IMG/VR virus record: IMGVR_UViG_3300025701_000030
Coordinates: 1-35,259 of that record
Origin: a virus
Direction: 5' to 3' (one strand)
Length of the DNA: 35,259 bases
The number at the start of each line of letters is the position of its first letter. The first letter of the stretch is position 1. Of the stretch, positions 889 to 18,926 are shown one piece after another. Under the pieces are notes generated by a model. It was not told where the DNA came from and ran no database searches. It saw only the letters and a program-made list of their open reading frames with translations. The position numbers and the translations under genes are program-made.

Positions 889-908
889 AACTCTCGCAGG
901 CTCGAGTT
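889..908 (+). promoter_or_regulatory. Conserved stem-loop, copy 1
   Basis: AACTC (889-893) pairs with GAGTT (904-908) around the loop TCGCAGGCTC. The core CTCTCGCAGGCTCGAG at 891-906 is identical to copies at 1695-1710 and 8648-8663. The stem differs from the other copies, yet pairing is kept. It lies 42 bases before the ATG of the next gene. It may be an RNA regulatory element or a hairpin promoter. Confidence 0.7.
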
Positions 909-950
909 ATCCCGTGAGAAACACCATTCATTACCAAAAGGATACATATT

Positions 951-1091
951 ATGTATAATCAAGACTATCAAGAAATCACTACAATCCATGGTCAAGAGTT
1001 AAACAAGGATGAAATAACTCTTCAAGAACTCTTCGACCTAGGCTACTTCGAAGAAGAAGAATACACAATCGATCCAGAAATGGAAGATTAA
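951..1091 (+). CDS. Acidic 46-residue protein
   Basis: The ATG is preceded by AAAAGGA at about 936-942. The product is strongly acidic (ELFDLGYFEEEEYTIDPEMED), with no membrane segment and no cysteine. Small acidic early phage proteins often mimic DNA or bind host enzymes, but nothing here fixes the target. It stands alone between the conserved stem-loop upstream and an intrinsic terminator downstream, so it is likely a single-gene transcription unit, which is unusual in this packed arm. Confidence 0.65.
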   Translation: MYNQDYQEITTIHGQELNKDEITLQELFDLGYFEEEEYTIDPEMED

Positions 1092-1101
1092 TCAATAACT
1101 T

Positions 1102-1129
1102 AGCTCTCCTCACGGAGGGCTTTATTTTT
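1102..1129 (+). terminator. Intrinsic terminator after acidic small gene
   Basis: AGCTCTCC (1102-1109) pairs with GGAGGGCT (1114-1121) around a four-base loop with one wobble, followed by TTATTTTT. It starts 11 bases after the stop of the 46-residue gene. Confidence 0.85.
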
Positions 1130-1152
1130 AACTAATCCAAGAGGGCACACTT

Positions 1153-1305
1153 ATGCTAACTGTATTATTAATTATAAACCTAGTAACAATCCCACTTCTA
1201 TTCCTTACCAAGGACAGAGTGGACAGATTCACAATAAGATTAGTAGCAGTCAGCTTGTGTGTCTTCAACATGCTAATCTGCTCATCAGGTACAACAACAT
1301 GGTAA
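1153..1305 (+). CDS. 50-residue membrane protein
   Basis: The start ATG follows AAGAGGGCA. Residues 1-18 are a hydrophobic helix (LTVLLIINLVTIPLLFL). A charged linker (TKDRVDRFTIR) leads to a second hydrophobic stretch at residues 29-43, so a two-span hairpin is likely. The stop overlaps the start of the metalloprotease gene (ATGGTAA), which points to coupled translation. No family is recognisable; early membrane proteins of this size may act in exclusion or host membrane changes, which is inference. Confidence 0.55.
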   Translation: MLTVLLIINLVTIPLLFLTKDRVDRFTIRLVAVSLCVFNMLICSSGTTTW

Positions 1306-1685
1306 ATATTGACGATATAATAGGTGATTTATTGCCAATTGTGTCAAAATGCATGAAGTATGCAGGTAGAAAACCAATGCTTGTTGATGCAAAAGCAGAT
1401 AGGTCCATAAAGGTTGAGAATCAAGCATACTGTGAATACTTAGGTGATTCATTCGGTGTGCGTTGGTTCTCAATCACGTACCATCCCTCTCTTGAGCAAG
1501 ACGAGAGGGCTCTTATAACCATGCTTTCTCATGAGTTAATACATGCAGTACAGTACGCTAGAGGTGATAAGTTCGACCACAGCCTACCCTACTCACAACA
1601 ACCACATGAAATCGAAGCATACAACCTTGAGGGAGTCGTAGCAGACTCTTACTTCTCCCTTAAGAACCCTAAAGTAACACCTTAA
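1299..1685 (+). CDS. Small zinc metalloprotease-like protein (HExxH)
   Basis: This 128-residue protein carries HELIH at residues 78-82, the zinc-binding signature of zincin metallopeptidases. The two histidines would bind zinc and the glutamate would be the catalytic base. HEIEAY at 103-108 offers a downstream glutamate as third ligand, the spacing expected of short zincins of the SprT or phage metallopeptidase type. I chose the ATG at 1299, which overlaps the stop of the previous gene; a GTG at 1257 in frame would add 14 residues. No signal peptide is seen, so it would act in the cytoplasm. The substrate is unknown, and a host or phage protein target is inference. Confidence 0.75.
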   Translation: MVNIDDIIGDLLPIVSKCMKYAGRKPMLVDAKADRSIKVENQAYCEYLGDSFGVRWFSITYHPSLEQDERALITMLSHELIHAVQYARGDKFDHSLPYSQQPHEIEAYNLEGVVADSYFSLKNPKVTP

Positions 1686-1691
1686 GTACAT

Positions 1692-1713
1692 GACCTCTCG
1701 CAGGCTCGAGGTC
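1692..1713 (+). promoter_or_regulatory. Conserved stem-loop, copy 2
   Basis: GACCTC (1692-1697) and GAGGTC (1708-1713) form a perfect six-pair stem around the same ten-base loop as in copies 1 and 3. The outermost pair is G-C here and A-T in copy 3, a compensatory change. It lies 48 bases before the start of the ssDNA-binding protein gene. Confidence 0.75.
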
Positions 1714-1761
1714 TTAAATGGCACAATGCCAAACAAATCTAATCCAAATAGGAAATATATT

Positions 1762-2265
1762 ATGACTACTCAAATCAATGAACCACGCAACTATGTAATC
1801 AAAGATGTTGAATTAAACTACGCTAAAGTTGCTAAGCCAGTCAGCCCCTTCGGTGTTGAGCAATATGAAGTACAAATCGCTACTACTGATCGTCAGTTAG
1901 CGGAGACATTGAAAGCTAACTTCTTCAATGTTAAAGAGAAAGACGGTAAGTTCATTGTGTCATTGAAACGTAAAGCACAACGTGCAGACGGTTCAGATAA
2001 CGGTGCTCCTAAAGTCTTCGATAAGAACTTGCAGCCAATCGAGGGTGAAGCCCTTACTAAGATTGGTAACGGTTCTAGAGGCAATGTTAAGGTGTTCCAA
2101 TACCCTTACAGTGCTGGTGGTCGTTCTGGTATCGCTGGTTCATTAACAGCAATCCAAATCACAGACCTTGTGGAGTACTCAGGTATGGGCTCTATCACTG
2201 ATGGGTTCGACTTACCTTCAGCACCTGGAGATAGCACTGTAGAGGACGCTGGAGCAGCGTTCTAA
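1762..2265 (+). CDS. ssDNA-binding protein, T7 gp2.5-like
   Basis: This 167-residue protein resembles podoviral single-stranded DNA-binding proteins: an N-terminal beta-rich OB-fold-like region (NYAKVAKPVSPFGVEQYEVQ), a basic middle (VSLKRKAQRADG) and aromatic strands (GNVKVFQYPYSAGGRSG). The last residues (STVEDAGAAF) are mildly acidic and end in phenylalanine, as in T7 gp2.5, where the terminal F helps contact polymerase and helicase. It would coat single strands during replication and recombination. The ATG at 1762 is chosen because the upstream extension runs through the conserved stem-loop. The acidic tail is weaker than in T7. The stop overlaps the start of the next gene. Confidence 0.75.
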   Translation: MTTQINEPRNYVIKDVELNYAKVAKPVSPFGVEQYEVQIATTDRQLAETLKANFFNVKEKDGKFIVSLKRKAQRADGSDNGAPKVFDKNLQPIEGEALTKIGNGSRGNVKVFQYPYSAGGRSGIAGSLTAIQITDLVEYSGMGSITDGFDLPSAPGDSTVEDAGAAF

Positions 2266-2441
2266 TGAACCCTTGGTATAGAACTGAAGATGTCCATACG
2301 TTGCTCAGAGAGGCCCTTGATGGGGTTCTCTTAGCACAAGAGTTAATACAGAATGGTAATGAGGGTTTAGCAGTAGATGAGCTAGAAATAGCATTCAGTC
2401 ATCTTAAACTCTTACAAGAAGCAATCAGTGAGTCCTGTTAG
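2265..2441 (+). CDS. 58-residue helical protein, unknown
   Basis: The ATG overlaps the stop of the ssDNA-binding protein gene (TAATG), so translation is probably coupled. The sequence is predicted helical and acidic (VHTLLREALDGVLLAQELI, LAVDELEIAFSHLKLLQEA), with leucine spacing suited to a two-helix bundle. Its stop lies inside the stem of the terminator at 2429-2459. No family is recognised; a partner of the ssDNA-binding protein would fit the coupling but is inference. Confidence 0.65.
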   Translation: MNPWYRTEDVHTLLREALDGVLLAQELIQNGNEGLAVDELEIAFSHLKLLQEAISESC

Positions 2442-2459
2442 GGCTCATTGGTTTTTTTT
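2429..2459 (+). terminator. Intrinsic terminator after ssb operon
   Basis: TGAGTCC (2429-2435) pairs with GGGCTCA (2441-2447), including one G-T wobble, around a five-base loop. TTGG and eight T residues (2452-2459) follow. The left stem and loop overlap the last codons of the 58-residue gene. Confidence 0.9.
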
Positions 2460-2471
2460 GATATGTCAACC

Positions 2472-2520
2472 CAAGGCCCCTACGGACCTTGTGTTAACTC
2501 AAGGGGATTCCCCTTGTAAC
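2472..2520 (+). other. Two adjacent hairpins in intergenic gap
   Basis: Hairpin one pairs CAAGG (2472-2476) with CCTTG (2487-2491), with two further C-G pairs inside. Hairpin two pairs CAAGGGG (2500-2506) with CCCCTTG (2510-2516) around a three-base loop, and is framed by GTTA (2493-2496) and TAAC (2517-2520). They lie between the terminator and the next gene. Neither is followed at once by a long T-run. They may protect or process the next mRNA. Confidence 0.5.
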
Positions 2521-2535
2521 CCCTTTTAGAGGATA

Positions 2536-2549
2536 CCGACAAGGGCCCC
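2536..2549 (+). promoter_or_regulatory. CCGACAAGGGCCCC motif, copy 1
   Basis: This 14-base motif matches 8567-8580 at 13 of 14 positions. Both copies follow GATA at a short distance, lie downstream of an intrinsic terminator and precede a new run of genes. That placement fits a phage promoter, possibly for the T7-like polymerase, but two copies are too few to define a consensus. Confidence 0.4.
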
Positions 2550-2550
2550 C

Positions 2551-2718
2551 ATGGATTACATCAAAACAAAGTTAGCACTTATAAAGCACCACATCTACCG
2601 TATTGTCACAAACTACTCTATGAAAGGCCATCGTTGGGCTAGAGTATTAGTGATTTATACTTATCAAAAGAAACTCAAACAGGAGCACAAATTCTATGTT
2701 CAATCAAAATCAGAATAA
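2551..2718 (+). CDS. Basic 55-residue protein, unknown
   Basis: The ATG comes directly after the CCGACAAGGGCCCC motif; AAGGG within the motif could serve as ribosome binding site. The product is very basic (KTKLALIKHHIYRIV, MKGHRWARVLV, YQKKLKQEHK), with a possible amphipathic or membrane-surface helix. It overlaps the next gene by 23 bases in another frame. No family is recognised. Because motif and start touch, either the motif is not a promoter or the mRNA is almost leaderless; coding is therefore only moderately sure. Confidence 0.45.
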   Translation: MDYIKTKLALIKHHIYRIVTNYSMKGHRWARVLVIYTYQKKLKQEHKFYVQSKSE

Positions 2719-2929
2719 AGTTAAGATGGCAACTGTCAATGAGTTGTTAGCCCTTCCTAAACAGACTAGCCATGTCCGATACAAAAGCGAGAATGATCGC
2801 ATGTGGCCCCTCCTAGTCCCAGAGGATATACGTTCAGATGCAGGTTCAGCTAAGGCATCTAAAAACCGTATGTTCTGCAAGATAAATACCTTCACTAAAC
2901 ACTATGAGGAGCACTCATTATGTCTCTAG
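2696..2929 (+). CDS. Hypothetical protein, 77 residues
   Basis: AGGAG near 2682 gives a ribosome binding site for the ATG at 2696; a later ATG at 2726 lacks one. The middle (ELLALPKQTSHVRYKSENDRMWPLL) is polar with few hydrophobic stretches, and no known motif is seen. Its end overlaps the start of the exported ClpP-fold gene by ten bases, so the two are likely translated together. Function unknown. Confidence 0.6.
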   Translation: MFNQNQNKVKMATVNELLALPKQTSHVRYKSENDRMWPLLVPEDIRSDAGSAKASKNRMFCKINTFTKHYEEHSLCL

Positions 2930-3567
2930 ATAAAAAAGCTAAAGTGTTGACACAAGCTACAATAACTATAATATTGCTGATGTCATTCATAACATATGTA
3001 AATAATGCCGATGCAGCTACCATGCGTATATCTGATAAAGGCACAACCCTGTACTATGACGGTGCTGTTCAATGGGGTGACTACCATAGGCTAAAAGATC
3101 TGATTAATAAGAATCCTAAACTCCTATACATATCTCTTAACTCAAGAGGTGGGTCAGCTCAAGAGGGACGTAACATAGGTATCCTACTAAGAAAGTCACT
3201 ACTGACTACTGTAGTCCAAGAGAATGCCATATGTGCATCAGCTTGTACTTCTATGTTCCTAGGTGGTGTAGTGCGTATAGTTGAGTCATCTGCAAGAATG
3301 ATGTACCATCCGCCATACATGGAGGAATATCCTCAAGGTTGGACAATGGAGCATATAGCGTTAAGTGCTCAAAACCAAACAGCAATCGAGATAGCACACT
3401 CAGTGGCACTTGTTGAGCTTAACAAAGAGTTTCAAGTTGTTAAGTTCTTGTTGCACAATGTGTATAACTTGAAAACAAACAGTGGGATACTCTATACTGC
3501 ATCCCCTCAAGAACTTCTAGATTCTGGTATTGCTACTCGAGTTTACACAAAAACCAAAGGTGAGTAA
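2920..3567 (+). CDS. Exported ClpP-fold serine protease-like protein
   Basis: This 215-residue protein starts with a lysine-rich end and one hydrophobic helix (about residues 11-27), then an A-D-A site near residue 32, so a cleaved signal peptide is likely and it would act in the periplasm. The rest matches the ClpP/crotonase fold: LNSRGGSAQEG at 73-83 (oxyanion-type glycines), CASAC with the candidate nucleophile Ser107, and MMYHPP with His130, the order seen in ClpP. It belongs with the secreted ClpP-like proteins rather than cytoplasmic ClpP. It lies just before the AAA+ gene, but a periplasmic protein cannot dock with it. The substrate is unknown. Confidence 0.7.
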   Translation: MSLDKKAKVLTQATITIILLMSFITYVNNADAATMRISDKGTTLYYDGAVQWGDYHRLKDLINKNPKLLYISLNSRGGSAQEGRNIGILLRKSLLTTVVQENAICASACTSMFLGGVVRIVESSARMMYHPPYMEEYPQGWTMEHIALSAQNQTAIEIAHSVALVELNKEFQVVKFLLHNVYNLKTNSGILYTASPQELLDSGIATRVYTKTKGE

Positions 3568-3569
3568 TC

Positions 3570-4619
3570 ATGGCTGATAAAAACACTAAATATATGTTCG
3601 CAGACACTTGTGAACCACTGTTCTATATGCTTGATAGAGACAGTGATACAATATCTTGGGTATTCATTATGGATTCCAATGAAGCTGTATCTCTCTCAGA
3701 CAGCGATATGGATGATCTTATCCAGAAAGGTAAAGTTGTACAAGAGACAGAAGAAGCATTGTCAAGTTTCTTCACAGATGCAATCAATGGCAAAGGTGGT
3801 GAAAATGCTATCAACATGTTCGGTTTCTTAGAAATACCTGCTCCTACTACCTCTGATAAGAAAGAAGAAAACACAGAGGATGAGGGTGAAGTGATCAAAG
3901 TGCCTGATACATACCGACCAGAGCTATGTAATACCTCTATCTCACCAGAAGTACTCGTTAAAAAGCTAAAGATTGCAGAGTCAAAGACAGAACGTCCTGA
4001 TTGTATCTCTATCTTATTCGAAGGTGTTCCTGGAAGTGGTAAGACACTAGCTGCTGCATACATAGGTAAGGAACTCGGTAAGACTGTTAAGTCATACAGA
4101 TTGAGTGAACTACAGAACAAGTATGTTGGTGAGTCTGAAAAGTTGATTGCTGAAGCATTTGATAAAGCAGAAGAGAATGGTCACATATTACACATTGATG
4201 AGATTGATTCACTCAGCCGTTCACGTAACGATGAGTCTAAAGGTCATGAGATCAAGATGTGCAACACACTGTTACAATGCCTCGATAGGTTCAAGGGTAT
4301 CTTCATAGCTACCACTAACTATCGTGATGAGTTAGACTCAGCAGTCAAACGTCGGTTCTTACTCAAGCAAGAGTTCAAGAACTGCACTTCAGAACAAGCT
4401 AATGAACTCTCTAAGTTGTTCTTCGGTAAGCGCATAGCCCCTATGAACCTACCTAACGAGACATTCGCCCCTGCAGACTTCAATATCGTCAAGAACTCCT
4501 TCTTGTTCGAAGAAGATAAGACAATCAACCGCAAGTTCATCCTCAAGCGTCTCACAGAAGAAGCAAAGGATCGTAACGGTAAAGACTTAGTTAATAAGAA
4601 AAAGGTAGGATTCCTATGA
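3570..4619 (+). CDS. Classical AAA+ ATPase (unfoldase-like)
   Basis: This 349-residue protein has an acidic N-terminal region (1-140) and one AAA+ module. Seen motifs are Walker A GVPGSGKT (152-159), a pore-loop-like KYVGESEK starting at residue 184, Walker B HIDEIDSL with D210 and E211, sensor 1 in FIATTNY, and arginine fingers R261 and R262. The pattern is that of FtsH/Vps4-like classical AAA proteins, which thread substrates through a hexamer. The C-terminus reads KKVGFL; V-G-F resembles the IGF/IGL tripeptide by which ClpX and ClpA dock on ClpP, although there it sits in an internal loop. With clpP two genes downstream, a phage protease complex is a fair inference. The end overlaps the next gene by four bases. 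Confidence 0.85.
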   Translation: MADKNTKYMFADTCEPLFYMLDRDSDTISWVFIMDSNEAVSLSDSDMDDLIQKGKVVQETEEALSSFFTDAINGKGGENAINMFGFLEIPAPTTSDKKEENTEDEGEVIKVPDTYRPELCNTSISPEVLVKKLKIAESKTERPDCISILFEGVPGSGKTLAAAYIGKELGKTVKSYRLSELQNKYVGESEKLIAEAFDKAEENGHILHIDEIDSLSRSRNDESKGHEIKMCNTLLQCLDRFKGIFIATTNYRDELDSAVKRRFLLKQEFKNCTSEQANELSKLFFGKRIAPMNLPNETFAPADFNIVKNSFLFEEDKTINRKFILKRLTEEAKDRNGKDLVNKKKVGFL

Positions 4620-4795
4620 GTGATCTAAGAAAACAATCTCAAGCAAGTATTACAGAGTTATCAAAACTGGCTGACTACTGTTCCATGATGTCTTGTAAGA
4701 CAGGTGAGAGTAAATACATGACAGCTTATCACGAAGTAGCAGATGCAATGGTCAGTATTAAAGAGTTCATTAAGAGTGAGGAAGAAAACCTATGA
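4616..4795 (+). CDS. 59-residue helical protein between ATPase and clpP
   Basis: Both ends overlap neighbours by ATGA, so it is translated in step with the AAA+ ATPase and ClpP. The product is helical and acidic at the end (VADAMVSIKEFIKSEEENL), with cysteines at 22 and 27. No family is recognised. Its place between an unfoldase and its likely peptidase suits a substrate adaptor or assembly factor, but that is inference from position alone. Confidence 0.65.
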   Translation: MSDLRKQSQASITELSKLADYCSMMSCKTGESKYMTAYHEVADAMVSIKEFIKSEEENL

Positions 4796-5370
4796 TACCT
4801 ATGATTGTAGAGAAAGAAGGTTCAAGAGAACGCTCATGGGATGTGTACAGTCGGTTACTAAAGGACCGTATCATCTTCCTTAACACGGACTTCAATGATG
4901 ACATGGCTTCTGCAATCTGTGCTCAGCTTATCTTGTTAGAGGCTGAAGACTCAAAGGCAGATATCACTATGTATATCAACAGTCCTGGAGGTTCTGTTAG
5001 CTCAGGCATGGCTATCTATGATACAATGCAGTACATCAAACCAGATGTGTCTACAGTTATCATGGGCCAAGCATGCTCCATGGGTTCCTTCACAGCTAAT
5101 GCTGGTGCAGCAGGTAAACGATTCATGTTACCAAATGCACGTCACATGGTTCACCAAGTGTCAGCAGGCACTAGTGGTCAATGCTCAGACATGGAAATTG
5201 CAGTTAAAGAGGCTCGTCGTATTAACGATGATCTGGCTAAAATCTATGTCAAACACAACAGTAAAGGTAAGACACTGTCAGACTTCCGAAAGGTAATGGA
5301 CCGTGATAGTTGGATGACATCACATGAAGCATTGAAGTTCGGTCTTATTGACAAAATCATTAAACGATAA
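4792..5370 (+). CDS. clpP: ATP-dependent Clp protease proteolytic subunit
   Basis: This 192-residue protein aligns with bacterial ClpP over its whole length. The triad is in place: Ser96 in GQACSMGSF, His121 in PNARHMVHQ and Asp172 in DRDSWMT, with Ser-His spacing identical to Escherichia coli ClpP. YINSPGGSVSSGMAIYDTMQ and the C-terminal GLIDKIIK are family hallmarks. It would form a 14-subunit chamber that needs a AAA+ partner, either host ClpX/ClpA or the phage ATPase two genes upstream. No long propeptide is seen. The start shares ATGA with the gene before. A phage-encoded active ClpP is uncommon; it may redirect host proteolysis or process phage proteins. Confidence 0.93.
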   Translation: MIPMIVEKEGSRERSWDVYSRLLKDRIIFLNTDFNDDMASAICAQLILLEAEDSKADITMYINSPGGSVSSGMAIYDTMQYIKPDVSTVIMGQACSMGSFTANAGAAGKRFMLPNARHMVHQVSAGTSGQCSDMEIAVKEARRINDDLAKIYVKHNSKGKTLSDFRKVMDRDSWMTSHEALKFGLIDKIIKR

Positions 5371-5373
5371 ACT

Positions 5374-5507
5374 ATAACATAAGGAGGATTGCCGTTCTCT
5401 TAAGTTATATGCATTACAAGATGTAGAGGGTTGCCGCCCTCGGGAACAGTATGGTCTTGCCGGACCATGCTTTTCTTCAAGTACATTCCAAGAGTGTGCT
5501 TCAAGAA
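5374..5507 (+). ncRNA. Four-hairpin structured element, TTGCCG loops
   Basis: Hairpin A pairs AGGAGGA (5382-5388) with TTCTCTT (5395-5401), extendable outward to 5374-5408. Hairpin B pairs GAGGG (5426-5430) with CCCTC (5437-5441). Hairpin C pairs ATGGTC (5451-5456) with GACCAT (5463-5468), extendable by three pairs. All three have the loop TTGCCG (5389-5394, 5431-5436, 5457-5462). Hairpin C is followed by TTTT. Hairpin D pairs TTCTT and AAGTACA with TGTGCTT and AAGAA (5473-5507) around a C-C mismatch. The element fills the gap after clpP; no gene is seen in it. Whether it is a stable RNA, a terminator cluster or a leader is not known. Confidence 0.6.
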
Positions 5508-5529
5508 GAGTTCAACTAGAGGATACATT

Positions 5530-5946
5530 ATGAAACGCTATCAGGTATACAAAAACCTACACAAAAACTGCTGGTCTATCAGAGATGCTAAAACCAAACA
5601 TGTTGTTGGTCATGCTGATACTGTTCAGTTGTTCCAAGTGAAATATAAAGTAAGTAAAGCAGGTCGTGAGAGAGTCTTAAGAGACCAGCGTAAGAGCGTC
5701 CATGCAGTAGTTGAGGGTGAGATTGTATCAGTCTCAGGCTTCACTTCCTTCAAAGGTAGGTCATTCCAATCTCATGGAGTGTACCCTAACTTATACTCCG
5801 ATAGAGTATACCTAGAAGAGCTCACATACAACCCCTACAGGTTCACTCACTTCGTCAAGAAGATGTCTGAGAACTTAGTACTGAATAGTCGTATGGCCAC
5901 ACTTGACCGCCATGGCAAGCTAACTGGAGGATTCCAAAGCATATGA
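5530..5946 (+). CDS. Conserved-type phage protein, 138 residues
   Basis: The ATG at 5530 follows AGAGGAT (5518-5524); a TTG-start extension to 5431 would run through the hairpins and is rejected. The protein is basic, opening with MKRYQVYKNLHKNCWSIRD and with GRERVLRDQRKSVHAVVEGE in the middle. From memory, small proteins of this pattern occur in many lytic phages without known function; I could not check this. The second half is aromatic and beta-like (GVYPNLYSDRVYLEELTYNP). Its stop overlaps the next start. Confidence 0.75.
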   Translation: MKRYQVYKNLHKNCWSIRDAKTKHVVGHADTVQLFQVKYKVSKAGRERVLRDQRKSVHAVVEGEIVSVSGFTSFKGRSFQSHGVYPNLYSDRVYLEELTYNPYRFTHFVKKMSENLVLNSRMATLDRHGKLTGGFQSI

Positions 5947-6137
5947 ATAGTAGAATAGATGAACTAACCATTGAGACTCTTGATGACAACATCGAGATTG
6001 CCCTAGAAATATTGACCAACCTAGAGTCTGGTGAGTATACACCACGTATGGCTGCACAATTCCTCTTTCAACTAGTAGAGGATTGCCAGTGCCATGCTAA
6101 AGATATCGAGTACACTAAGTATTATGGAACTGATTAA
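5943..6137 (+). CDS. Acidic helical protein, 64 residues
   Basis: The start ATGA overlaps the previous stop. The product is acidic and helical (ELTIETLDDNIEIALEIL, AAQFLFQLVEDCQCH), with two cysteines near the end. It overlaps the next gene by 14 bases. No family or motif is recognised. Confidence 0.65.
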   Translation: MNSRIDELTIETLDDNIEIALEILTNLESGEYTPRMAAQFLFQLVEDCQCHAKDIEYTKYYGTD

Positions 6138-6318
6138 GTATACAATACACTACCATAAGGGAACACCTTCGAAGTCCCAGGTAGTCCACAAAGATATCGT
6201 GTATTCTCAAAATGACATATCAGCAGATAAAGCACGTAAAACTCTTGAGGTCCTAGCTCCAGAGCATGACTTCAATACCTTATGTCAAACCCAATACCTA
6301 GAAAACGAAGGATTATAA
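6124..6318 (+). CDS. Hypothetical protein, 64 residues
   Basis: I place the start at the ATG at 6124, inside the end of the preceding gene; an ATG at 6094 in the same frame lacks a ribosome binding site and would overlap by 44 bases. AAGTATT upstream is a weak ribosome binding site, so coupled translation is likely. The N-terminus is beta-like (LIKYTIHYHKG) and the rest helical (ISADKARKTLEVLAPEHD). No family is recognised. Confidence 0.55.
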   Translation: MELIKYTIHYHKGTPSKSQVVHKDIVYSQNDISADKARKTLEVLAPEHDFNTLCQTQYLENEGL

Positions 6319-6319
6319 G

Positions 6320-6520
6320 ATGAGTAAGCTATATAAACTATGTACAGGTAAGAATGGTTGTAACGGTGTGTTACCCTTAGACCAGTTCGCTACTGATAAA
6401 AGCTCCGTAGATGGTCACTACCGTTACTGTCGTTCATGTGAGCGTAAGTACCAAAAGAAAATGAAAAAAGTCCGTGAGGCATATGGTGTAGGATTGCGTG
6501 AACTATCTAAACTAAACTAA
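6320..6520 (+). CDS. Small zinc-finger-like protein
   Basis: This 66-residue protein starts one base after the previous stop, with GAAGGAT as ribosome binding site. Cysteines at 8 and 13 and the pair in YCRSCERKYQ (37 and 40) suggest one zinc site. The pattern PLDQFATDKSSVDGHYRYC resembles the short zinc-binding module found at the N-terminus of phage HNH nucleases, here without a nuclease domain. The C-terminus is basic (KKMKKVREAYG). DNA or RNA binding is likely; the role is unknown. Confidence 0.7.
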   Translation: MSKLYKLCTGKNGCNGVLPLDQFATDKSSVDGHYRYCRSCERKYQKKMKKVREAYGVGLRELSKLN

Positions 6521-6544
6521 TCAAAAAAAACCCAGGAGGGTACT

Positions 6545-6796
6545 ATGAGTAACATAATTGAAGAAACTGTGCATGTTGAGCTACGTGACTTAACCTTTGA
6601 GGTAGAAGTTGCTTACCTTCCTAGTAATAATGCAACAGACCCACGTGATAACTTCGAGGGTGCGATTATAAGTTATGACCTCATTGAGGTTTACTATGAC
6701 CAAGGCTATGCAGAGTTTCCACCAGACACTGTTAATTGGTTAGCTGAGCAACATGGTGATGAAGTTGTAGAAGAACTTAAGGAAATATTACTATGA
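6545..6796 (+). CDS. Acidic protein, 83 residues
   Basis: A strong ribosome binding site, AGGAGGG, lies just before the ATG. The product is acidic, with an N-terminal strand pattern (TVHVELRDLTFEVEVAYLP) and an acidic C-terminal helix (EVVEELKEILL). It overlaps the next gene by four bases. No family is recognised. Confidence 0.7.
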   Translation: MSNIIEETVHVELRDLTFEVEVAYLPSNNATDPRDNFEGAIISYDLIEVYYDQGYAEFPPDTVNWLAEQHGDEVVEELKEILL

Positions 6797-7245
6797 TTAA
6801 AATACCTAACCTAGAACGATTGGCTCTTGAAGCAATATTAAATGACGGTACATACAATGGTGATGAAGATTGGTGGACAAGTATGACCACTAATGAGACT
6901 AAAGTATATGACATCAACGTCTATCATGAAAACCCATCTGATACTAATGTTCGTATAACAATCTACAACTGTATCGCTTCAATGGACGGTACCAATTGGG
7001 TAACAGATACAGAAAGCGAAGCAGGTTTCATGGAAATACCTAAGTCCGTAATCATGCCTGATAGACAGGAAAGATTATATGAAGTGTCCTTCCAAGTTAT
7101 CACAGAGTATACCGTTAGCGTACATAATAGTGAACACGCTGAAGCATTACGTACAGTTAGACGTATGGATAATGAGAACGACTTAATAACTCGTGGAAAG
7201 TTCAAAGGTATGCATACAAAGATAACATCATGTAAGGAAATGTAA
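6793..7245 (+). CDS. Hypothetical protein, 150 residues
   Basis: It starts in an ATGA overlap with the gene before and ends by sharing one base with the gene after. The first part reads as a small beta domain (TKVYDINVYHENPSDTNVR). The end (YEVSFQVITEYTVSVHNSEH, followed by ALRTVRRMD) looks like a short beta-alpha unit often seen in small phage proteins. No catalytic motif is seen and I do not recognise the family. Confidence 0.7.
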   Translation: MIKIPNLERLALEAILNDGTYNGDEDWWTSMTTNETKVYDINVYHENPSDTNVRITIYNCIASMDGTNWVTDTESEAGFMEIPKSVIMPDRQERLYEVSFQVITEYTVSVHNSEHAEALRTVRRMDNENDLITRGKFKGMHTKITSCKEM

Positions 7246-7445
7246 TGAGTCAGGAACTTAAGTTAATATACAAATGTGTCTCATACCTCGAAGAACAAGG
7301 GTATTATGGTAATATAGACCTAATATACGCTGTCAATGAGGTTGCTAATGATGCAGCATACTATATCTGTGAACGCTTCACTACTCCCGATGGTGGTGAG
7401 GTTGATGATAACACTTACCAAGTCATTAAGGAGTGGTTAGAATGA
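7245..7445 (+). CDS. Acidic protein, 66 residues
   Basis: The ATG overlaps the previous TAA by one base (TAATG), with TAAGGA upstream. The product is acidic and mixed helical (LIYKCVSYLEEQGYYGNIDL, then GEVDDNTYQVIKEWLE), rich in tyrosine. The stop overlaps the next start by ATGA. No family is recognised. Confidence 0.65.
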   Translation: MSQELKLIYKCVSYLEEQGYYGNIDLIYAVNEVANDAAYYICERFTTPDGGEVDDNTYQVIKEWLE

Positions 7446-7675
7446 GAGAATCACACAAACACGCAGAATTAATTGATATTGTAAAAACAATTAACTTGTA
7501 CTTCCATTATCAATCACTGTCAGAGTCCTTCCACGACATGGCGGAAATAGCGAGGGAGAATGGTGACCATGAAGATGTAGTGCGCTTATGTAAAGACTCC
7601 ATCAAATATGCCAAGTATGCTATGGATGTAAAGCGTATCATCATTGATGAGTTTAAAGAAGAATTAGAGGATTAG
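7442..7675 (+). CDS. Helical protein, 77 residues
   Basis: AAGGAG at about 7428-7433 serves the ATG at 7442; an earlier in-frame GTG at 7433 is less likely. The protein is all-helical in appearance (AELIDIVKTINLYFHYQSL, DVVRLCKDSIKYAKYAMDV) with a charged C-terminus (EFKEELED). It may form a small bundle or an oligomer. No family is recognised. Confidence 0.65.
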   Translation: MRESHKHAELIDIVKTINLYFHYQSLSESFHDMAEIARENGDHEDVVRLCKDSIKYAKYAMDVKRIIIDEFKEELED

Positions 7676-7677
7676 TT

Positions 7678-8388
7678 ATGAAAGGTTTTATTCTATATGA
7701 AGGCCCCTCAATGTTCGATAAGAAACCCATAGTAGCCATCGTGACCTTCAGCTCAACCAATGAGAAGACAGGGAACATGGCACAACTATGGATACTTCCT
7801 AAAGACGTAGCACCCCATGAAGCAGTCAAGTCCGGGAAGGACCAATCTGTCTGTGGTGGTTGCCAGCATCGACACAATCTAGGAGGTGCCTGTTATGTTC
7901 TACCATTCCAGGGCCCTCTATCTGTATGGCGTTCATACAAGCGTGGATTGTACCCTAAATCGAACCCTAAGGCTCTCCTAAAGCTTATGCTTAAGGAACT
8001 AAGGCTAGGTGCTTATGGAGACCCCGCAATGCTCCCAGAAGACCACCTACGAGCTGTCAAATCAGTAGCCCGTGGTACAACAGGTTACTCTCACCAGTGG
8101 AAGAATAAGAGACTCAAACATGCTATGCAGTATTGCCAAGGGTCCGTAGATTCACTAGAGGAAGCTAAACAGTTCAAAGAAATGTATCCTAATGGTCATT
8201 ACTTCCGTGTTACTGATGATATCTCAGATATACAAGAAGATGAAATACAATGCCTCGCAGATACCAAAGGCTTAACATGCCAACAGTGCATGTTATGTGA
8301 CGGCACTAAACAGAATATCGTCATAGAAGTACATGGCGCTAAGAAGTCTCGGTTCACCTCAGATATTCAGATCAAGGAAGTTGTTTAA
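7678..8388 (+). CDS. Conserved-type phage protein with cysteine clusters, 236 residues
   Basis: It starts two bases after the previous stop. The N-terminus (LYEGPSMFDKKPIVAIVTFS) and the segment APHEAVKSGKDQSVCGGCQH followed by GGACYV form a pattern I associate with a widespread phage family of unknown function. GPLSVWRSYKRGLYP follows. Cysteines in C-G-G-C and later in TCQQCMLCDG suggest at least one zinc site. The final third (IVIEVHGAKKSRFTSDIQ) is basic. A nucleic-acid role is likely from the charge and cysteines, but no catalytic motif is clear. The stop overlaps the next start. Confidence 0.75.
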   Translation: MKGFILYEGPSMFDKKPIVAIVTFSSTNEKTGNMAQLWILPKDVAPHEAVKSGKDQSVCGGCQHRHNLGGACYVLPFQGPLSVWRSYKRGLYPKSNPKALLKLMLKELRLGAYGDPAMLPEDHLRAVKSVARGTTGYSHQWKNKRLKHAMQYCQGSVDSLEEAKQFKEMYPNGHYFRVTDDISDIQEDEIQCLADTKGLTCQQCMLCDGTKQNIVIEVHGAKKSRFTSDIQIKEVV

Positions 8389-8504
8389 TGTCAGAAGTTA
8401 TTGGTTTTGTAGCACCTCTTGCCCTTGCCCTCTTTGTTATCAGAGGGTATGTCTTCATCTTCAAAGAAGAGTTAGACAACTGGTGTGATGACAATGAAGA
8501 CTAG
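8388..8504 (+). CDS. 38-residue single-span membrane protein
   Basis: The ATG overlaps the stop of the preceding gene (TAATG), with AAGGAAG upstream. Residues 4-25 form one hydrophobic helix (IGFVAPLALALFVIRGYVFI). The C-terminus is acidic (EELDNWCDDNED). It closes the run of small genes; the terminator starts at its stop codon. Function unknown. Confidence 0.6.
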   Translation: MSEVIGFVAPLALALFVIRGYVFIFKEELDNWCDDNED

Positions 8505-8530
8505 GGACCCTTAGGGTCTCTTTCCTTTTT
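8503..8530 (+). terminator. Intrinsic terminator closing small-gene operon
   Basis: AGGGACCC (8503-8510) pairs with GGGTCTCT (8514-8521), with one G-T wobble, around the loop TTA. The tail TTTCCTTTTT follows. It overlaps the stop of the 38-residue gene. Confidence 0.85.
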
Positions 8531-8566
8531 GCTTCAACCGTCTGCCCCTTTCCCTTTTTGATAAAA

Positions 8567-8580
8567 CCGACATGGGCCCC
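8567..8580 (+). promoter_or_regulatory. CCGACATGGGCCCC motif, copy 2
   Basis: This second copy differs from 2536-2549 by one base. It follows a pyrimidine-rich stretch (8531-8560) and GATA, and comes after a terminator. It lies 129 bases before DUF3310 and the replication genes, a sensible place for a promoter. Apart from this motif and the stem-loop at 8645, no gene is seen between 8531 and 8695. Confidence 0.42.
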
Positions 8581-8644
8581 ATTATACGCCCCAGGAATAC
8601 GCTTCGGCAATCACTTGGTCCCCTTAAGAAACCCTAAAGACACT

Positions 8645-8666
8645 AACCTCTCGCAGGCTCGAGGTT
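8645..8666 (+). promoter_or_regulatory. Conserved stem-loop, copy 3
   Basis: AACCTC (8645-8650) pairs perfectly with GAGGTT (8661-8666) around the same ten-base loop as copies 1 and 2. It lies 29 bases before the start of the DUF3310 gene, at the head of the replication block. Confidence 0.75.
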
Positions 8667-8695
8667 TTAAGAGGTATTAAATATAGGAATTATAA

Positions 8696-8932
8696 ATGAA
8701 TGCAGTGAACCCTAGCCACTATCAAAGTGGTACAATAGAATGTATAGATTATATAGAGGAAGTTCTAGGTCCCGATGGATCTATAGCTTACTGCCAAGGT
8801 AATGTGACTAAGTATCTTCACAGATGGAAGATGAAGAATGGTCTCGAGGATCTAAAGAAAGCTCAATGGTACATCAACAAGATGGTAGAGCTAGAGACTA
8901 AGAGAGATGAAGAAGACGTAGAGTACCTATAG
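8696..8932 (+). CDS. DUF3310 family protein (T7 gp1.7-like)
   Basis: This 78-residue protein has the DUF3310 signature: NPSHYQSGTIECIDYIEEV near the start, then GNVTKYLHRWKMKNGLEDLK and KAQWYINKM. The family is common in phages and, as I recall, includes the T7 gp1.7 nucleotide kinase; this short version consists of the core only. It would support nucleotide supply for phage DNA synthesis. It leads the replication block, after the third conserved stem-loop. The ribosome binding site (TATAGGAA) is fair. Confidence 0.8.
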   Translation: MNAVNPSHYQSGTIECIDYIEEVLGPDGSIAYCQGNVTKYLHRWKMKNGLEDLKKAQWYINKMVELETKRDEEDVEYL

Positions 8933-18509: not shown

Positions 18510-18926
18510 TTATTTCTTACCGACTACCTTGAGGTAATCTTGAGCCTTCTTCATGAGCTCTTCTTTAGTTAGTTCGTCATAGGACATTTCAACTACTGTA
18601 CTTTCAACACTAGCTTTCTTAGCTGTCTCATAGGGAGCAAGCTTAGTTGCTAGGTCTTCAGCCTTATCATAGTCACCCTCTTTCAGGGCCTGCATCATGC
18701 TTAAGCGTAACACTTCCACTGCTAAGGGTGCATCATTGGCTACCTCAGAGTAGTCCTTGTATCCCTTAGTGAACTCTTTGAGTGCTTCACGCTCTGCCTT
18801 CTGGCGTCTACGTGTTTCCAATCCTTTCTCTCGAGCAGCATTGGATGTCTCTGAAGTAAACTGTGGAGCAGCGTGTGCCTTAAGTGCTGCAATACTGTTA
18901 GGGTTTTTCCCTTGGTTACCTGCCAT
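18510..18926 (-). CDS. Last late gene, 138-residue basic-N-terminus protein
   Basis: AGGAGG precedes the ATG at 18926. The N-terminus (MAGNQGKNPNSIAALKAHA, then AREKGLETRRRQKAER) is basic, and the rest helical and acidic (SYDELTKEELMKKAQDYL). The combination of a glycine/asparagine-rich start, a basic helix and the segment ALKEGDYDKAEDLATKLAPY recalls some phage terminase small-subunit-like proteins, but the match is loose and the gene is far from where terminases are expected. It could equally be a small virion protein. It is transcribed last in the late arm, directly after the polymerase-like gene. Confidence 0.7.
   Translation of the reverse strand: MAGNQGKNPNSIAALKAHAAPQFTSETSNAAREKGLETRRRQKAEREALKEFTKGYKDYSEVANDAPLAVEVLRLSMMQALKEGDYDKAEDLATKLAPYETAKKASVESTVVEMSYDELTKEELMKKAQDYLKVVGKK

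Follow-up and report, generated by a model that had tools for sequence, protein, structure and literature searches.

Covarying inverted repeats before early phage genes as likely promoters of a T7-like RNA polymerase

Introduction

The closest described parallels to the element reported here are the early promoters of phage N4. In the N4 genome (NC_008720) the sites gttgc-TTC-gcaacTTATGGAC, gaagc-TCC-gcttcTTTTGGAT and gctgc-TCC-gcagcTTTTGGTA, which we take to be P1-P3 from their position and the published -11 loop geometry, show the order hairpin, TTTT or TTAT, then GGA or GGT. The active N4 hairpin is that of the template strand, with a sheared G.A pair in its loop, and the non-conserved stem bases are free provided that pairing is kept (PMC4496689). 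In the open-access literature which we searched, no hairpin promoters of phage RNA polymerases (RNAPs) outside N4-type phages were found. Promoters of the T7 type are fixed double-stranded sequences, and the nut/boxB site of phage lambda is a small hairpin at early operon starts with a lineage-specific sequence.

In this work we have investigated an inverted repeat in a stretch of viral DNA of 35,259 nt (positions 1 to 35,259 of IMG/VR record IMGVR_UViG_3300025701_000030, hereafter the window) and in its relatives. In common with the N4 promoters, the element occurs in few copies, lies on the early strand and is a GC-rich inverted repeat with a tiny loop; stem bases which are free but complementary, and a short A/T spacer followed by a GGA-type start, are N4 features that are likewise met here, and in some lineages the template strand also has a G.A in the loop (GNA). 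It differs in that its hairpin has two parts and the stem contains template G.A pairs, whereas the N4 stem has 5-7 bp, and in its start-like motif, which falls 17-19 nt after the loop and not about 10 (11 nt after the loop centre). Its loop has 2-4 nt compared to 3 nt in N4, with 3-nt loops only in the relatives G13, G14, G23 and L055, and the cognate N4 enzyme, a giant virion RNAP of about 3500 aa which N4-type phages inject, was not found in the genomes carrying the element that were searched for it. Since the logic is shared but the stem, the G.A pairs and the spacing differ and no virion polymerase was detected, we file these elements as working like N4 promoters and not as members of that class.

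Features shared with T7-type promoters are the encoded T7-like RNAP and an A/T stretch followed by a GG or GA start, and the position of T7 phi2.5 before gene 2.5 is paralleled by the element directly before the gene of the ssDNA-binding protein (SSB). Unlike T7-type promoters, the element is a covarying inverted repeat with a free stem and is not used on the late strand. It resembles lambda nut/boxB in being a small hairpin that recurs where early operons begin and whose sequence is specific to the lineage, but here selection acts on the template strand of the DNA, and a start-like motif marks the end of the element. The lambda hairpin lies within the transcript, whereas the predicted start of our element falls downstream of the hairpin, although no transcript map is available.

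Results

An earlier note on the window, made without database searches, had claimed three exact copies of a 16-base core, CTCTCGCAGGCTCGAG, and had judged them not to be expected by chance. Both claims held. The copies lie at 891-906, 1695-1710 and 8648-8663, all intergenic and on the + strand (Table 1); no further match with up to three mismatches exists in the window, and shuffled windows contained a mean of 0.09 such matches, none of them reaching three. The stems and the fixed ten-base loop were as the note gave them, and so were the distance of 29-48 bases to a start codon (about 42, 48 and 29 nt for the extra copy, II and III) and the downstream genes: an acidic small protein, SSB and a DUF3310 protein, for which the PHROGs label is 'nucleotide kinase'. 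The number of copies has to be extended, since the sister contigs L004 and L010, which are >99% identical to the window and continue it leftward, hold a fourth exact one about 25-40 bp before the window begins. This copy sits in the non-coding region between the leftward terminase/portal genes and the rightward early genes. Beyond the window and these sister contigs, the exact 16-mer was found in only three unrelated contigs of IMG/VR. Pattern matches in L001, L002 and L005 were discarded because these contigs are unrelated.

Table 1. Positions of the element and of neighbouring features in the window
Feature	Position	Strand	Remarks
Hairpin element, extra copy	889..908	+	AACTC-TCGCAGGCTC-GAGTT; 5' of the 46-aa acidic ORF
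Predicted transcription start GAG	916..918	+	first G at +17 after the loop; inference
46-aa acidic ORF	951..1091	+	first gene past the extra copy; no family match
Intrinsic-terminator-like site	1102..1121	+	closes the unit begun at the extra copy
Hairpin element II	1692..1713	+	GACCTC-TCGCAGGCTC-GAGGTC; 5' of SSB
Predicted transcription start GGC	1720..1722	+	inference
gp2.5-like SSB	1762..2265	+	phrog_112; first gene past element II
Intrinsic-terminator-like site	2423..2453	+	closes the SSB unit
Intrinsic-terminator-like site	8503..8521	+	precedes element III
Hairpin element III	8645..8666	+	AACCTC-TCGCAGGCTC-GAGGTT; 5' of DUF3310 and polA
Predicted transcription start GGT	8673..8675	+	inference
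DUF3310-type protein	8696..8932	+	PHROGs 'nucleotide kinase'; first gene past element III
Single-subunit T7-like RNAP, 712 aa	15927..18065	+	proposed promoter reader

Two partial likenesses of the core were seen in the sister contigs. A 13-base exact piece of it, TCTCGCAGGCTCG, lies inside the portal gene (L004 about 1845-1860, - strand; L010 about 85), on the late strand and with partly wobble-paired flanks; it might be a chance match or an internal site. About 95 bp to the left of the fourth copy, CTCGCTTCGCTCG (L004 about 5418-5430) is identical to the core of the putative promoter in L055 and has no clear GGA start; perhaps it is a decayed element.

The window encodes SSB, the DUF3310-type protein, a family A DNA polymerase, a primase-helicase and the single-subunit RNAP, and the early/middle genes of this phage run rightward while the late genes run leftward. 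On L013, a related contig, the portal gave a match to the SU10 family of portals. Terminator-like sites close two of the hairpin-led units and precede the third copy, indicating that the copies start separate transcription units.

Another motif, WACCGACA, often doubled, was noticed in the window (2534-2541 and 8565-8572) and in G5, G7, G10, G12, G14, L059 and L060; in several relatives it is placed on the early strand, past intrinsic terminators and ahead of the next unit. We rejected ACCGACA as an RNAP promoter, as it sits after terminators and, judged by eye, has no initiator at a fixed spacing.

Relatives were gathered through homologues of SSB and RNAP as contigs with conserved gene order. 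In those whose SSB is 42-67% identical, a hairpin of this kind stands at the corresponding genes: where the early region begins, ahead of SSB and of the DUF3310/DNA polymerase group and, in several genomes, ahead of primase. In total we collected 46 sites from about a dozen lineages, mostly 23-60 nt ahead of start codons and at several operon starts. Each longer genome repeats its own version of the core three to five times. Between lineages the core varies: CTCGCARGCTC in the window, G6/G7, L059-L061 and G21; CACGC-AA-GCGTG in G5 and G25; CCGC-AA-GCGG in G12 and one G10 site; CACGT-RA-ACGTG in G8; and CACAC-TNC-GTGTG in G13/G14/G23. Absence or scrambling of the element at the same genes in relatives would have refuted the earlier note; this check was run and did not refute it, placement being syntenic, with covarying stems, in about ten relatives.

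The three window copies alone gave only weak support to the note's claim of covariation, which became strong once the relatives were added. Among 14 close elements, 33 cells were changed on both sides compared to 12.7 in shuffles, and among 28 elements there were 55 such cells compared to 17.0 (0/500 shuffles), a signal that was lost when the pairing was slid by one to three columns. Positions that vary between the copies of a single genome paired in 42 of 48 cells, compared to 22.6 once the arms had been swapped (0/2000), and G8 holds two versions of one stem, CACGT/ACGTG and CAGCT/AGCTG. A covariance model (R1) built from 28 sites, the search which the note had proposed, recovered the known sites and added new ones in contigs outside the seed, namely three each in G021 and G022, two in G025 and one each in L041, L106, L111 and L192, always on the early strand, which is that of the RNAP gene. 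The same sites scored far lower under a sequence-only model from the same alignment, so structure adds much to their detection. It should be kept in mind that the sites share descent and the counts therefore overstate their independence. Conservation and covariation show that the loop region is fixed while the stems change by compensatory substitution, and that both are selected; the note's view that something reads the element is thus supported.

The element has its limits. None was recognisable in the closest isolate, Roseobacter phage CRP-7, and the covariance model had no matches in T7, in the left 12 kb of N4 or in CRP-7. Searching de novo for 9-mers that repeat and have flanks able to pair gave too much noise, and in a generic scan for a hairpin plus GGA other clades could not be distinguished from background. 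The covariance-model search of 1.1 Mb gave no matches on the late strand, which means that the late genes need another promoter.

On that strand we observed a conserved motif, GGGGGGTAC(C)AAA..AAGGGTACATATATATAT..TTATAG, before the terminase gene (L004 about 4560-5100; also G5, G8, G12, G14, L060 and L061). It could be a late promoter or a packaging site, and we list it merely as a candidate for either.

Which strand would fold? In the nine-pair arms of the 46 sites, the coding strand shows C.T or T.C in 84 of the 96 non-Watson-Crick cells, which are thus G.A on the template, and shows G.A in none. The template G.A pairs are often tandem 5'-GA/5'-GA, an arrangement that is stable in DNA, and their positions vary by lineage (offsets 3-4, 6-7, or 6 alone). 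DNA energy parameters favour folding of the template strand in 42 of the 46 sites and of the coding strand in one, and no G.U occurs in the inner seven pairs (34 sites). Taken together, the template G.A bias, the better template fold and the lack of inner G.U are the opposite of what is expected for an RNA hairpin. Template loops are mostly GNA triloops in G13, G14, G23 and L055. The DNA hairpins predicted for the window copies are weak, about -2 to -5 kcal/mol (-2.1 to -4.7), and the leftmost folds no better than shuffles, so that any extrusion would need supercoiling or a protein; extrusion at N4 promoters depends on supercoiling and SSB.

When the sites are anchored on the loop, an A/T-rich stretch at +10 to +16 is followed by a G at about +17 and then a purine, and conservation stops at about +21. 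Of the 46 sites, 41 have a G-purine, mostly GGA, beginning at +17 to +19, compared to 2-14 in control windows further downstream. The best offset lies at +16 to +19 in every lineage with two or more sites, differing by 1-2 nt between lineages, and a set of eight new sites reads, for example, ...TTTAATAAGGA, ...TTTAAAATGGA or ...TATTGTGGA. R1 was partly trained on this motif and the later sites are not fully independent evidence for it; the first 34, on the other hand, were gathered by the hairpin alone, without the start motif. The arrangement resembles an initiation site of the T7 polymerase family, an inference from sequence alone for which there are no transcript data. Starts at 916, 1720 and 8673 would give leaders of 35, 42 and 23 nt. 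The earlier note had left open whether the hairpin forms part of the mRNA or precedes it; the start-like G 17-19 nt past the loop and the fold of the template strand favour upstream, again without transcript data.

The RNAP of the window has PF00940 and PDB matches to T7 RNAP. In profile searches its best match was T7 RNAP, with a weak match to N4 RNAPII (gp15/gp16), and it shows no sequence similarity to the N4 virion RNAP, which is the sole enzyme known to recognise hairpins of this sort. With N4 gp50 or its polymerase domain as query, phmmer found nothing significant among the six-frame ORFs of eight genomes, several of which, the window included, are incomplete. A T7-like RNAP is encoded in all genomes long enough to show it. 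The link between its specificity loop and the hairpin core was mixed: the loops of L125 and L129 are almost identical, yet their cores differ. No sigma-70-like site was seen on the + strand in roughly 1.3 kb ahead of the early genes, which leaves room for a packaged RNAP or for a host promoter of another type.

The gene at 18510-18926 (-), which adjoins the RNAP gene, is on the late strand in the window. Most relatives instead carry the homologue on the early strand, where it usually follows hairpin site III directly.

Discussion

We consider it likely (probability about 0.77) that the compact T7-like RNAP of the phage itself uses these elements as promoters. What has been shown is the conservation, the covariation, the fixed spacing to an initiation-like motif, the template-strand bias and the placement with respect to strand and genes; the promoter role, reading by the phage RNAP, actual extrusion of a hairpin and transcription from the site are inferred, and no transcript data support them as yet. 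In such a promoter the inverted repeat, imperfect and rich in GC, would have its centre about 18 bp ahead of the start and would be followed by a short A/T stretch and a GGA-type start. The folded template strand would comprise an outer stem whose sequence is free, then G.A pairs and an inner stem, closed by a very small loop, and the RNAP may read this hairpin through fixed bases near the loop, as the N4 virion RNAP does with its early promoters, and then initiate at the G past the A/T stretch. The predicted promoters would drive short rightward early/middle units with SSB and with the DUF3310/DNA polymerase/primase/RNAP segment.

The most serious rival is a hairpin in the 5' leader of the mRNA, bound by a phage or host protein and acting in antitermination like nut, in translational control or in 5' stability. 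The covarying stem, the fixed loop and the location, in most cases 23-60 nt ahead of a start codon and at several operon starts, would all suit it. We nevertheless regard it as unlikely, since the unpaired cells would be C.U in the RNA sense, with G.A only on the template strand, since in 42 of 46 sites it is the coding strand that has the poorer fold and the inner pairs lack G.U, and since the initiation-like motif at a fixed distance is left unexplained; in addition, no Rfam family matches the element at the gathering score, which was our threshold.

Could the element instead be a palindromic operator, read as double-stranded DNA by a dimeric regulator? It is near-palindromic and intergenic, and one sequence is repeated exactly within a genome, but the stem bases vary freely if paired, even between copies in one genome (G8), and the element is asymmetric between strands in its fixed orientation, template G.A bias and one-sided initiator, which makes an operator very unlikely. 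Several copies begin 3-7 nt past a stop codon and have a few T after them, which brings to mind weak intrinsic terminators, or hairpins at the 3' ends of the preceding genes. This explanation can be all but dismissed: ordinary terminators with long T tracts occur elsewhere in the same genome, and they do not share the fixed loop or the GGA at fixed spacing.

More questions follow from the preferred reading, that of promoters for the phage RNAP. Does a compact T7-like RNAP of 700 aa, and not an N4 virion polymerase, recognise template-strand hairpins extruded from double-stranded DNA? To us this bolder reading could as easily prove wrong as right. If it is true, hairpin promoters would be a broader mode of recognition by single-subunit RNAPs, not tied to the giant N4 polymerase, and the phage would offer a small system for cruciform-dependent transcription as well as a new orthogonal polymerase/promoter pair. 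Under the same reading the RNAP might conceivably be carried in the virion to start early transcription. The G.A-paired hairpins are a searchable signature for annotating transcription units in this group of uncultured phages.

Lastly, a gene for an AAA ATPase (window 3570-4619) adjoins one for a protease that, by eye, looks ClpP-type (4792-5370). These neighbours suggest that the phage may encode an ATP-dependent protease, a possibility that rests on this assignment by eye.
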